NCBI GenBank assembly: GCA_017996315.1
Contig: JAGOHE010000003.1
Coordinates: forward strand, 1 to 39,425
From: Kiritimatiellia bacterium
GTDB lineage: Bacteria; Verrucomicrobiota; Kiritimatiellia; PWTM01
Length of the DNA stretch: 39,425 nt
Reading direction: 5' to 3'
Shown here: positions 30,337 through 39,425 of the stretch, in pieces
Position numbering within the stretch: the stretch's first letter is position 1
Layout of the letters: each line of letters begins with the position of its first letter
Position numbers and translations under genes: made by a program
Notes under the pieces: generated by a model
Database searches by the model: none
What the model saw: the letters and a program-made list of their open reading frames with translations, nothing else
Told to the model about the DNA's origin: nothing

Positions 30337-32751
30337 CTATTCCGGCCGGGTCGGGCCCATGCGCAATACGGGCAATGTGGCGTCGCGCAGTTCAGCATTC
30401 ATGCTGAAAAGCACAAAGCCGTGCGCACCCGCCCGGCGGGCCGCTAGAATCTGCTCAATGGCCTGATCGGGCATCAGCCGGCTTTCGTTAGCCGTCACGC
30501 CGATTCCGGGATACACCCGGTCTTTTGAGCCGTTGAGTTTCATGTGTTGGGTGGTCAGGGAGGTGAACCGGGCCAGGTTTTCTGTGTAGGTCATGGGGCA
30601 GACAAAATCCACAAGGCCGTCCCGAAGCCACGCGGACCAGTCCTGGCCGACGGTGGATACGCAATCGGGATAGTCCGCATAGACGGCGACCGACAGCCGG
30701 GCCGAGGGTCGCGTCTTCTTGAGTTCCGACCGCACGCGGCGGACCAGGGCCGTGATTTGCTGCGCTCTCCATTCCTGAAATTCCCGGGCCAGCGGTCCGC
30801 CCGAAAGCACGTCCCGGGGCCACTGCGCCACCGGCTGTCCACGGGCGGCGGTAAAGGCCTGCCGGGTCCAATCGCTGCAGTCGTACGAACTCCCGGGATA
30901 GCGGATGTAATCCAGATGAATGCCGTCCAATTCGTGATGCGTGGCCAATTCGCGTACCACCGAGACGATCAGGTTCTGGTTGGCCGGATGGGCGAGATTC
31001 AACCACAACGTCGGTTTGCGGTCCGGTCCTTCGGCCATGCGCCCTTCCTTGCGCAGGCGTTCCACGTACGCCGGGGGGGCTTCCCCCAGGCCGGCGCATA
31101 CGATCCAGGCATGAGCTTCGATTCCCTGCGCGCGGACCGCGCGGACGAATTGATCGGCCTGATCGCCGTTCGATTGCAGGGTAAAAGATCCGGGCAGCAC
31201 AGCGCTGGGATAATGGGCGATGCCCCCCCACGCCAGGTTGGCGAACACCGCGGTCACGCCGCTGGCGCGCAGTTCCGTCGCGGAGCGCTTCCAGTCGCCC
31301 GCGTACCAACCCGTGCCGTCGTGATCCCACACTCCGCGGAATTCGCCGGGGACGGAGCGCTGGATGCGCGCATAGGCTTCCGTCAAGTCGGCGCGGAGGG
31401 CGCGCGCGTACCGCATGACCGCGCCATAGTCTTTTCGTCCGCCGGCGGATTTCATGCGCTGTTGGTCTTCGCGCGCGCGCTGCAGCGCGCGGCCGGCTTC
31501 CTCTCCCGCGGGTCCGGAGGGCATGCCGCGCTCGATGGAGCGTATCGCTTCTTCCGTCGAACGAAAGGAGTCCACCCGCCCCGCGGATTCCATGAGCGCC
31601 CGCGCGATTTCCGGCCAAAGTTCCGGAGCGTAGCGCGCGGCCAGGGCCGCCGCGAGGTGGGGTTTGGTGGCGGCGTCATCGGACAGCAGAATGTGCGACA
31701 TCCATGCCCCATGCTGCGATTCCACCCACGCGGCGTGCTCCGAGCGGCGACCTCGTTCATCTTCCCACCAGGCCATCACGCGGGCCTGGGGGGAAAGGGG
31801 CCGAGGAGGCAGCAGGTTACCGGACTGCTGCAGAACCCGCTCGGGGCCGTTCCATTCCGGAAATCCTTTGAACGAGAACGCGCTCCATTGCAGGGGACGT
31901 TTGGCGCGGACCCATGATCCAAGGGTGAAGCCCATACGCTTCGCCAACTCCGCATCGGCTGAATAGCACACCAGCAGCCGCCCGCCGCGGTCCAGCAACT
32001 GGAAAATTTCCCGACGCGTCGAATCCGGAAGCGTGGTGTTGTAGGGAAGCACGGCGATTTTGGAATTTCGGAGCGCCCCGCGATCCACATCTTCCTCATC
32101 CACCAGGGCGTGGGGAACGCGCATGGTGTTGAACCATTCGCAGAACCGATCGGCGGCCTCGGCGCCGGTTCGACGTTCGGAAGCCGGGACCGACCGGGTT
32201 CCCTTTACCACCGTCACGACCGGATGAATCACGGATAAGCTATGGAGCGCCACCGGGGCATCGAGGTCCGCGCCGCGCCATGCGGAGAACCGCACCCGCG
32301 TGATCCGGGACCAGCCGGCGGGTTGGCCCTCCGTCGCGCACTGCGAGGGCGAGATGGTCATGCGCGAACGGCCCGGGCGCTGAGGCCGGATCGTCGCAAC
32401 ATACCAGCCAGGTCCGGATTCGAGATAAAGATGCAGCGCGCGAAATGCCTCGGGCCGGTGCACGGTGAAGTCCACCTCCAGCGCCATTCCCGGCTGGAGA
32501 CGCAGGGACGCCCCGTGATCCCAGTAGAAACGATCCGCCCGGACACGATCGAAGGGGCAGGGGAATTCCACGCCTCCTCCGCGCACGGTCCGGGCGGCCG
32601 GCGTGTCGGCTTCCACCGCCCGCCAGCTTCCGGGCGTGAGTATGGGCTCCGATTTGCCCGGGCCTGCGGCCTGCATCGCTACCGTGGTTTCGATCCCAAG
32701 TAACGCGATTACTCCGATCGTGAATGCGCGGGCTATGCATGAAGGACACAT
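30337..32751 (-). CDS. Secreted glycoside hydrolase-like protein (GHL10/DUF187), multidomain
   Basis: An 804-residue exported protein. The first 26 residues are a hydrophobic signal-like segment (AFTIGVIALLGIETTVAMQA). The next 150 or so look like a beta-rich, carbohydrate-binding-type region. Around 200-300 an alpha/beta stretch (KIAVLPYNTTLPDSTRREI, LLDRGGRLLVCYS) recalls a glutamine-amidotransferase-like (ThuA/beta-galactosidase trimer) fold. The C-terminal half, from GEFRGVWDHDGTGW near 467, is a GHL10 TIM barrel with LAWGGIAHYPS, HAWIV, and DGIHLDYIRYPG near 609-620, where acidic residues would catalyse. GHL10 proteins include enzymes such as YngK/DigH that cut denuded peptidoglycan glycans, so cell-wall or polysaccharide cleavage is likely. 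ATG 32751 is supported by the promoter just before it. Confidence 0.86.
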   Translation of the reverse strand: MCPSCIARAFTIGVIALLGIETTVAMQAAGPGKSEPILTPGSWRAVEADTPAARTVRGGGVEFPCPFDRVRADRFYWDHGASLRLQPGMALEVDFTVHRPEAFRALHLYLESGPGWYVATIRPQRPGRSRMTISPSQCATEGQPAGWSRITRVRFSAWRGADLDAPVALHSLSVIHPVVTVVKGTRSVPASERRTGAEAADRFCEWFNTMRVPHALVDEEDVDRGALRNSKIAVLPYNTTLPDSTRREIFQLLDRGGRLLVCYSADAELAKRMGFTLGSWVRAKRPLQWSAFSFKGFPEWNGPERVLQQSGNLLPPRPLSPQARVMAWWEDERGRRSEHAAWVESQHGAWMSHILLSDDAATKPHLAAALAARYAPELWPEIARALMESAGRVDSFRSTEEAIRSIERGMPSGPAGEEAGRALQRAREDQQRMKSAGGRKDYGAVMRYARALRADLTEAYARIQRSVPGEFRGVWDHDGTGWYAGDWKRSATELRASGVTAVFANLAWGGIAHYPSAVLPGSFTLQSNGDQADQFVRAVRAQGIEAHAWIVCAGLGEAPPAYVERLRKEGRMAEGPDRKPTLWLNLAHPANQNLIVSVVRELATHHELDGIHLDYIRYPGSSYDCSDWTRQAFTAARGQPVAQWPRDVLSGGPLAREFQEWRAQQITALVRRVRSELKKTRPSARLSVAVYADYPDCVSTVGQDWSAWLRDGLVDFVCPMTYTENLARFTSLTTQHMKLNGSKDRVYPGIGVTANESRLMPDQAIEQILAARRAGAHGFVLFSMNAELRDATLPVLRMGPTRPE

Positions 32752-32758
32752 GGGCGAA

Positions 32759-32787
32759 ACTGTAGCCGCGGATAGGGAGCGGCTCAA
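32759..32787 (-). promoter_or_regulatory. Sigma70-type promoter, probably leaderless, for the GHL10 gene
   Basis: On the minus strand TTGAGC (32787-32782), a 17-base spacer and TACAGT (32764-32759) end seven bases before ATG 32751. No Shine-Dalgarno lies between. An alternative TTG start at 32787 falls inside the -35 box, which supports the shorter protein. Confidence 0.6.
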
Positions 32788-37275: not shown

Positions 37276-37350
37276 TGGAGGCGCGGATCGGAATCGAACC
37301 GATGAATAGAGGTTTTGCAGACCTCCGCCTTACCACTTGGCTACCGCGCC
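37276..37350 (-). tRNA. tRNA-Cys (anticodon GCA)
   Basis: Read on the minus strand, 72 bases (37350-37279) fold as a full cloverleaf and are followed by an encoded CCA (37278-37276). The acceptor stem GGCGCGG pairs with CCGCGCC, the D stem is GCC/GGC, the anticodon stem is GAGGT/ACCTC around loop CTGCAAA with anticodon GCA, and the T arm is ATCGG-TTCGATT-CCGAT. The discriminator is U, as required for cysteine. It lies between the topoisomerase VI A gene and the PPIase. Confidence 0.97.
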
Positions 37351-37391: not shown

Positions 37392-38537
37392 TCAGGGCAG
37401 GAACCGGCCGAGCTTGAGTTTTTCAGGCAAGTAGCGCTCCAGCACAAAGTTCAAGCCGTGTTTCGCGAAGGCCTGCTGCTCGATGCGGACGCCCATCTTG
37501 AGCATCTGTTCCAGCGCCTGCTGCCACTCCTTGTGATGCCGGATGAACGGGTCGTTCTTGAGCGCGTCGCGGGCGCGCTTGATATCCGCATCCTCCAGCG
37601 GATGCGTGGCGTCTTCCAGGTCGTAGTCGAGGATGTCCTGGGGCGTGACCCCGAGGTAGTGGCACTGGGGCACGCAGAAGTACCGGTTGATGTGCGCCGC
37701 CTGTCCGGACCCCGCCTTGAGCGTTCGATAGATATTGCAATAGCCGTACGGGTCGCCGTCGGTAAAGGCCAGCACGGGCAGCTTCCGATCGTCGGCCAGC
37801 CGGCGGATAAACCGGCGGCAGGCGCGCGTGGGCACACCGCTCATGGAGATCAGAATGCATTTCGCCTTCTCGAAATACCGGTGGTGCACGAGGCGCTGGA
37901 ACAACGATGCGGTTTCCACCGCGAGAATGAATTTCGCATGGGATTCGAAGCGCAGATGCTCGACCCGGGAGGGTATGCTCCATGCCCCGGTTCCGAGCTT
38001 CAGGCAGTTGATCGGGATGTCCTTGCCCGTCGCCGGATCGCGGTCCACCACGATCAGCGGACCGCAGACTTCGCCCCCGCGCTCCTCCGGGATGTACCCG
38101 AGTTGTTCGCGGTTGATGCCGAGCATGGCCTCCATATCGTCGAGCAGGCTGTCGCTCTCCGGCTGCTCGTCGAACCGGCATTCGCCCCAGCTCTTCGAGT
38201 TGTAGTACACCTCGCGTTTGCCGGCGATATCATCGCGGTCCAGCAGGTCGTTCTTCGTGGTCGCGAGCAGGCGCATGGATTGCGCGAACGTCTTGACCGT
38301 GTTGTACGACAGCGTCCGCGTGGCGACCCGGTGGAGGATTTCGAAATGCCCGCGCGCGGCATCGAATTTCACGTTCTTCAGCGAGCGCACCGGAAACTTC
38401 ATGCTGGGCTTGCGGTGTTTTCGGACGATGTCGTTCCGGATCGTTTCGGCGACCGTCACGATTTTCTTCGAAGCGTCCTGGCGGGTCACCGAGCGCGGGC
38501 CGGATTCCGGAGCGGCGGGGGGGGTGTTCTTTTTCAT
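37392..38537 (-). CDS. top6A: DNA topoisomerase VI subunit A (Spo11-like)
   Basis: A 381-residue homologue of the DNA-cutting subunit of type IIB topoisomerase, which works as an A2B2 complex to pass one duplex through another with two-base overhangs. The 5Y-CAP (winged-helix) domain has KREVYYNSKSWGE (107-119), where Tyr112, the second of the pair, should be the residue that joins to DNA. The Toprim domain has Glu208 in AVETASLF and Asp260-x-Asp262 in FTDGDPYGY, which hold the magnesium. The length is normal for the family, so it looks functional. The start overlaps the subunit B stop (ATGA). An N-terminal basic tail of about 25 residues is extra. Both subunits are common in archaea and plants but patchy in bacteria. 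Confidence 0.95.
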   Translation of the reverse strand: MKKNTPPAAPESGPRSVTRQDASKKIVTVAETIRNDIVRKHRKPSMKFPVRSLKNVKFDAARGHFEILHRVATRTLSYNTVKTFAQSMRLLATTKNDLLDRDDIAGKREVYYNSKSWGECRFDEQPESDSLLDDMEAMLGINREQLGYIPEERGGEVCGPLIVVDRDPATGKDIPINCLKLGTGAWSIPSRVEHLRFESHAKFILAVETASLFQRLVHHRYFEKAKCILISMSGVPTRACRRFIRRLADDRKLPVLAFTDGDPYGYCNIYRTLKAGSGQAAHINRYFCVPQCHYLGVTPQDILDYDLEDATHPLEDADIKRARDALKNDPFIRHHKEWQQALEQMLKMGVRIEQQAFAKHGLNFVLERYLPEKLKLGRFLP

Positions 38538-39425
38538 ACGTCCAGATGGCTCTTTTCCAGCATGCGGCGCAGGTCGACCAGCACCCGCTGTTCGTCACGG
38601 TCGCTGAGCGACAGCACCTGCTTCAATCCCAGGGCCAGATGGGGCAGATACATTTCGATATAGGAGCGCTTGCGGTCCGCTTCGGCGGCCCGATGGCGGC
38701 GTCCGACAAAGACCGACATGCGCCGTCCGCATTCCTGCAGGCCCAGGGTCACTTCCTTGAGAATCTCCCCGTAGCTTGCAATCGCATCCTTGCTCTCGCT
38801 GGTGAAGGGCACCCAGACACTGGCCATGTGCACCATGATCACCACCGGTCCCTGCGGGAGCGCGCCTTTGGGCTGGGACAGCCCGTACGATTTCCAGTCC
38901 ACACCGGTCACCGCCTTGGTGATCGCGCAGCCGCCGGACATGTGCAGCAGGGGAACCCGGTTGGCAAAACGCAGCAGGCGGACCGGATCGTCCGCGGCGC
39001 CGCCGGCGCCGCCGGGACGGGCCACGGCCAGCCCGACTTCGATCAGGAACGGATTGCCCCGGTAGACCTCGGGATTGCGCGTGACCGCGGTGACGAATTC
39101 CGGATCCACCTCTTTGCGCAGTCCCGCCTCGATGGCCGCTTCGCCAATGGGCGCGAGGCCATCGGTGGGGGGACGCATGAACCGGGTTTCCGAGATCGCC
39201 TTGAACAAAGCTTCGGATTCACGATGCGCGATGCGCGTGGGATTTGCGGATGGTTCGAGACCCGCCCGCGCGCAAAGCTCCTGTGCGACCCGGTCGCTGA
39301 CCCGGCAGAACTCCTGCGTGAGCGCCGTTTTGAGAGTCCGGGCGCGGGTATTCTTCAACATCTGCATCAGCATCCCGAGTTCGACGCCGAGCGGATGCGG
39401 CCGGATTTCCCGGATCGGCGGGGGC
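38534..39425 (-). CDS. top6B: DNA topoisomerase VI subunit B, C-terminal part
   Basis: About 296 residues of the ATPase subunit; the N-terminal GHKL ATPase core lies beyond the window edge. The part seen starts with IRPHPLGVELGML, matching the helix-two-turn-helix/transducer junction of TopoVI-B. It continues through SETRFMRPPTDGLAPIGE, LLRFANRVPLLHMSGGCAI and the key transducer stretch VPFTSESKDAIASY, whose lysine contacts ATP in known structures. The C-terminus ends after the transducer without the immunoglobulin-like extension of some archaeal forms. The stop overlaps the subunit A start by four bases, giving a B-A operon as in many archaea. Any promoter is outside the window. Confidence 0.95.
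   Translation of the reverse strand, partial: PPPIREIRPHPLGVELGMLMQMLKNTRARTLKTALTQEFCRVSDRVAQELCARAGLEPSANPTRIAHRESEALFKAISETRFMRPPTDGLAPIGEAAIEAGLRKEVDPEFVTAVTRNPEVYRGNPFLIEVGLAVARPGGAGGAADDPVRLLRFANRVPLLHMSGGCAITKAVTGVDWKSYGLSQPKGALPQGPVVIMVHMASVWVPFTSESKDAIASYGEILKEVTLGLQECGRRMSVFVGRRHRAAEADRKRSYIEMYLPHLALGLKQVLSLSDRDEQRVLVDLRRMLEKSHLDV

Follow-up and report, generated by a model that had tools for sequence, protein, structure and literature searches.

Topoisomerase VI, which untangles DNA, is known mainly from archaea, and the usual chromosome-separating enzyme of bacteria is topoisomerase IV. What, then, does a pair of genes resembling topoisomerase VI mean on the contig of a Kiritimatiellia bacterium? 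Why some bacteria keep topoisomerase VI, and whether it can substitute for topoisomerase IV, are questions left by the survey of Allen and Maxwell 2024 (PMC11302465). Our analysis started from a window of 39,425 nucleotides, i.e., the whole stretch of DNA analysed, and extended the comparison to the class to which its host belongs.

The subunit genes and their catalytic residues

Both subunits, Top6A and Top6B, are assigned at high significance by Pfam and NCBIfam. The Top6A gene (37392-38537, minus strand) is complete and encodes 381 amino acids matching the three Pfam Top6A domains (TP6A_N, Topo_VI_alpha and TOP6A-Spo11_Toprim, the Toprim match at E=4e-57). Its matches in the PDB are archaeal topoisomerase VI structures only, the nearest being the Top6A of M. 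jannaschii (1d3y), aligned over residues 79-375 (297 residues) with E=1.9e-105. We found in it both the winged-helix (5Y-CAP) domain with the cleaving tyrosine and the Toprim glutamate and Asp-x-Asp. Indeed, Tyr111-Tyr112 (38202-38207, minus strand) and the metal-binding Toprim residue Glu208 (37914-37916, minus strand) are invariant in 65 of 65 aligned Top6A, and the Toprim pair Asp260-x-Asp262 (37752-37760, minus strand, inside FTDGDPYG at 37743-37766) has both aspartates in 64 of the 65, the remaining row being a gap. By likeness to Spo11 and Top6A, the second tyrosine, Tyr112, would be the DNA-cleaving one. Against six relatives of 83-85% identity, dN is 0.12-0.14 and dS 0.85-2.5, showing that Top6A is under strong purifying selection.

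The Top6B gene is shared between two contigs. The window holds its C-terminal 296 amino acids, i.e., the H2TH region and the transducer, with an open 5' end (38534-39424, minus strand; Topo-VIb_trans, E=9.5e-55); residues 1-275 of this part align to 2q2e_B, the H2TH region being judged by alignment alone. The transducer carries the motif PFTSESK (38789-38809, minus strand), with the switch lysine at 38789-38791, and the ORF coordinates place the start of A and the stop of B in an ATGA overlap (38534-38537, minus strand). Since the window contig stops at base 39425, Top6B is truncated by the assembly. A broken or half gene is ruled out, as the N-terminal half lies at the edge of another contig of the same genome (C181:5-820, minus strand). 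In the full Top6B of a relative (L009, 577 aa), residues 285-577 match the window and residues 6-281 match this interval of C181; moreover, the first 8 bases of C181 are identical to the last 8 of the window, and the join, read by hand, is in frame (...DLPPPIREI...). We infer that this is the junction of Top6B and hence that the operon is whole, though the assembly splits it. The C181 part shows the GHKL motifs KEAVDN, DNGPGI and GQQGIGISAAG and an HATPase_c score above the cut-off, so that the GHKL ATPase domain of Top6B is present on C181, its attachment to the window depending on that junction. The Top6B of the relative aligns only up to residue 508 of the 621 of the M. mazei B subunit; judged from it, the B subunit described here would lack the Ig-like domain found at the C-terminus of the M. 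mazei protein, as do other bacterial Top6B (PMC11302465).

A preliminary description, made from the letters of the window, had proposed a coupled B-A pair with Tyr-Tyr, Glu, Asp-x-Asp and PFTSESK. The Top6A domains, Topo-VIb_trans and the ATGA overlap bear out the pair, and each of these residues is where it had been placed. The N-terminus of Top6B, whose recovery it had advised, exists in the host genome with its GHKL motifs intact.

Topoisomerases IV and VI in the host and its class

The genome carrying the window is a 2.22 Mb MAG of 240 contigs, 84% complete and with 2.8% estimated contamination. It encodes one PF00521 protein, a single GyrA with the GyrA box QRRGGKG, together with one GyrB whose gene is divided between two contigs, the C-terminal half preceding GyrA and the N-terminal half lying elsewhere. 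The search for parC/parE and gyrA/gyrB, also advised in the preliminary description, recovered the gyrase genes and no ParC or ParE in this 84%-complete genome, which has no second PF00521 gene lacking the GyrA box beside a ParE. At such completeness this absence is weak alone, but it is matched in near-complete genomes from the same family: four f1 genomes (G001, G003, G006 and G007, 96-98% complete) have single GyrA- and GyrB-type genes each.

At the scale of the class, Top6A is above the cut-off in 86 of 288 genomes and Top6B in 89; the six genomes with Top6B and no detected Top6A are probably assembly gaps. Outside the class, no Top6A above the cut-off was found in a phylum sample of 388 genomes. 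We counted topoisomerase VI as present when A or B was detected, and topoisomerase IV when ParC or ParE was detected. At a completeness of 90% or more, topoisomerase VI occurs without topoisomerase IV in 23 genomes and together with it in 28; topoisomerase IV alone occurs in 88 and neither enzyme in 2 (Fisher p=2e-10, kinship ignored). Fifteen genomes carry two PF00521 genes, with a GyrA box in 15/15 first copies and 0/15 second copies; most of the second copies adjoin a ParE, and topoisomerase VI is also present in 12 of these genomes. A ParE check, which covered genomes with one PF00521 gene and nine controls, left ParE undetected in 30 of the 32 topoisomerase VI genomes of this type that were checked. 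The survey genomes are drafts, so that a gene missing from one of them may simply fall in an assembly gap; G086, G067 and G206 are examples. Many members of the class seem to have kept topoisomerase VI and lost topoisomerase IV. The early suggestion that the enzyme works beside or in place of topoisomerase IV is supported on both counts, "in place" applying to the host lineage and "beside" to about half of the carriers in the class.

The arrangement of the two genes varies. In about 16 of 76 related loci, top6B and top6A are separated by unrelated genes (for instance in L005, L025, L035, L077, L046 and L054), which encode 23S-rRNA-intervening-sequence (23S-IVP), PDDEXK_3, PIN, TPR and kinase proteins; these insertions differ from locus to locus, which rules out a common accessory gene between B and A. 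In nine further loci, the roughly 5.7 kb upstream of A contain no B. An apparent Top6A fusion in L018 (a 1298-codon frame) was rejected, the upstream frame having no domain and a start codon being present ahead of Top6A. In the two-contig Kiritimatiellae genome MH-Pat (L080/G018:C1, about 1423607-1426069), frame changes break Top6A into three frames and Top6B into two. Many other frames of this locus are short too, while GyrB is intact (828 aa); the broken frames reflect either gene decay or assembly indel errors.

Probable gain and losses of topoisomerase VI

We read this distribution as one old gain of an archaeal-type enzyme, followed by a state with three type II enzymes together and then by alternative losses. 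On balance, it is probable that, in a large part of the Kiritimatiellia, an ancestor had gyrase, topoisomerase IV and an archaeal-type topoisomerase VI, that its descendants repeatedly dropped topoisomerase IV or topoisomerase VI, and that topoisomerase VI became a true functional replacement in many independent lineages. A loss-only reconstruction, which assumes that topoisomerases IV and VI are both ancestral, was run on a GyrA phylogeny covering 103 genomes, with other classes as the root. It gives 9 losses of topoisomerase IV, 7 of them in topoisomerase VI lineages, and 11 losses of topoisomerase VI, 10 of them in topoisomerase IV lineages. When branch lengths are considered, the alternation of losses is no more than suggestive (p=0.07 and 0.11).

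The patchiness could also stem from several gains in the class, between members or from outside, rather than from losses of an ancestral enzyme. This is possible, though rather doubtful. It would agree with three families (f1, f12 and f26) whose Top6A sequences do not group as single clades, with a correlation between Top6A and GyrA tree distances that is significant and moderate (Mantel r=0.44, p=0.001), with a gene location that is not conserved and with A and B genes that are often unlinked. Against it, 7 of the 10 multi-member families are clades in the Top6A tree (f2, f6, f7, f14, f15, f25 and f42), and the class is one group in the careful Top6A tree, with support that is weak when G011 is included (96/73) and strong when it is left out (100/99). 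This grouping is not recovered in a quick tree whose root is M. jannaschii alone. Only two proteobacterial and five archaeal sequences served as outgroups, a small number on which both the donor and the single entry rest; moreover, the Top6A tree and the GyrA tree are both weak in their deep branches. The search for mobile carriers runs against repeated gains: Top6A gave no phage or viral match and no bacterial plasmid, only three haloarchaeal megaplasmids being matched. Carriage by a mobile element was rejected on these results.

As for the age of the single gain that we favour, an old acquisition fits because topoisomerase VI is spread over the class and the Top6A tree keeps most families together, in agreement with the old transfer put forward in the preliminary description. 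The correlation between Top6A and GyrA distances, moderate as it is, also counts in favour of our reading. One bacterial topoisomerase VI cluster is close to Methanococcales (PMC11302465), which is consistent with M. jannaschii being the best PDB match here.

Proposed function, genomic setting and known enzymes

Taken as a whole, the best explanation of the locus, which we hold with good confidence, is a genuine and complete topoisomerase VI (type IIB, predicted A2B2) of a Kiritimatiellia bacterium, expected to work as in archaea. ATP binding would make the GHKL domains of B close around a second duplex; the transducer would relay the signal to A, whose Tyr112 pair would cut the first duplex, leaving a two-base overhang; through this cut the second duplex would then pass. 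The sequences show the integrity of the genes, the catalytic residues, the purifying selection, the lack of detectable topoisomerase IV in the host and its near-complete family, and the class-wide spread. We infer from these that topoisomerase VI replaces topoisomerase IV in vivo.

The enzyme could instead be real and have a side role, such as DNA repair, stress or the relaxing of positive supercoils, with gyrase alone decatenating where topoisomerase IV is absent. Topoisomerase VI is indeed kept alongside topoisomerase IV in 28 genomes, and other bacteria live with gyrase as their sole type II enzyme. Two fairly complete genomes of the class (G020, 92%, and G236, 97%) may be of this kind, having neither topoisomerase IV nor VI detected and gyrase as the sole type II enzyme found, so gyrase alone may be sufficient. 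We nevertheless consider a side role unlikely, as topoisomerase VI is present in 23 of the 25 class genomes without topoisomerase IV, above chance if kinship is ignored. In favour of replacement, the M. mazei enzyme is said to complement a parE-ts mutant of E. coli (unpublished statement in PMC11302465).

The genes adjoining the pair are ordinary bacterial ones, as had been noted at the outset: a tRNA-Cys (GCA) outside the topoisomerase VI system (37276-37350, minus strand), and housekeeping or envelope genes for a lipid A acyltransferase, SurA/PpiC and CoaBC. Even in a draft of 240 contigs with some estimated contamination, an archaeal or chimeric, misbinned contig is extremely improbable and was dismissed on account of these bacterial neighbours and of close bacterial relatives, Top6A sharing 73-85% identity with its counterparts in dozens of independent MAGs (Kiritimatiellia, Verrucomicrobia and Lentisphaerae), its archaeal matches being far weaker, and Top6B running on in frame into a second contig belonging to the bin. 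MAGs with these three labels (or Kiritimatiellae) also make up most of the 76 related Top6A loci. The base composition had been described as matching the neighbours; this is so for overall G+C (0.62 and 0.65 for Top6A and Top6B, 0.63 for the window) and not for third-position G+C, which is somewhat higher in the topoisomerase VI genes (0.85 and 0.79) than in their neighbours (0.67-0.76). A conserved neighbourhood was not found, the six neighbour genes tested being almost never near Top6A in the 76 loci. An 816-aa protein of the window (30337-32787, minus strand), which combines a long N-terminal region with a glycosyl hydrolase-like 10 domain, has a relative (41% identity) that is also near top6A in L052.

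With archaeal topoisomerase VI (M. jannaschii 1d3y, M. mazei 2q2e, S. shibatae 2zbk), the system shares the three Top6A domains, the cleaving tyrosine, the Toprim residues, a GHKL-transducer B subunit and the B-A gene order, and its Top6A is clearly nearer to M. jannaschii than to the other two. It differs by its occurrence in a bacterium with gyrase and, judging by the relative's B subunit, by the predicted lack of the M. mazei Ig-like domain. Topoisomerase IV (ParC/ParE) would share its proposed cellular role, the decatenation of sister chromosomes, but is a type IIA enzyme with another cleavage subunit and was not found in the host genome. Topoisomerase VIII and MksG/Gabija-type Toprim proteins have type IIB or Toprim parts in common with it. 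Here, A and B are separate, full-length and chromosomal, with best matches to topoisomerase VI models; they lie among housekeeping genes rather than on the free or integrated plasmids of topoisomerase VIII, and no bacterial plasmid or phage homologue was found. Spo11/topo VIB-like systems have no conserved GHKL partner, whereas a full GHKL B subunit is present here.

Bacterial topoisomerase VI, its archaeal origin and its occurrence without topoisomerase IV are already published (PMC11302465). The 17 families of Allen and Maxwell 2024 resemble the present case in their gyrase, their frequent lack of topoisomerase IV and their archaeal gene descent; their list includes Planctomycetota and neither Kiritimatiellia nor Verrucomicrobiota, and gyrase, topoisomerase IV and topoisomerase VI were reported together in Pseudomonadota and Terrabacteria only (PMC11302465). 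Here, by comparison, 28 genomes at least 90% complete have all three type II enzymes, which corrects the reported limits on such bacteria. What is new relative to that survey is the lineage, the scale and the three-enzyme genomes outside those two groups; our search, mostly outside subscription journals, found no literature linking Kiritimatiellia with topoisomerase VI, and two papers in which topoisomerase VI and a Verrucomicrobial name each occur a single time. One class with topoisomerase VI only, topoisomerase IV only or both, in dozens of genomes, offers a natural comparison that could settle whether one enzyme substitutes for the other.

Gene names can mislead in this respect. Of the six NCBIfam models that match Top6A, five bear the name "DNA topoisomerase IV subunit A", the label also given to haloarchaeal Top6A genes (CP031304.1, NZ_CP031306.1); keyword counts of ParC can therefore take topoisomerase VI for topoisomerase IV.
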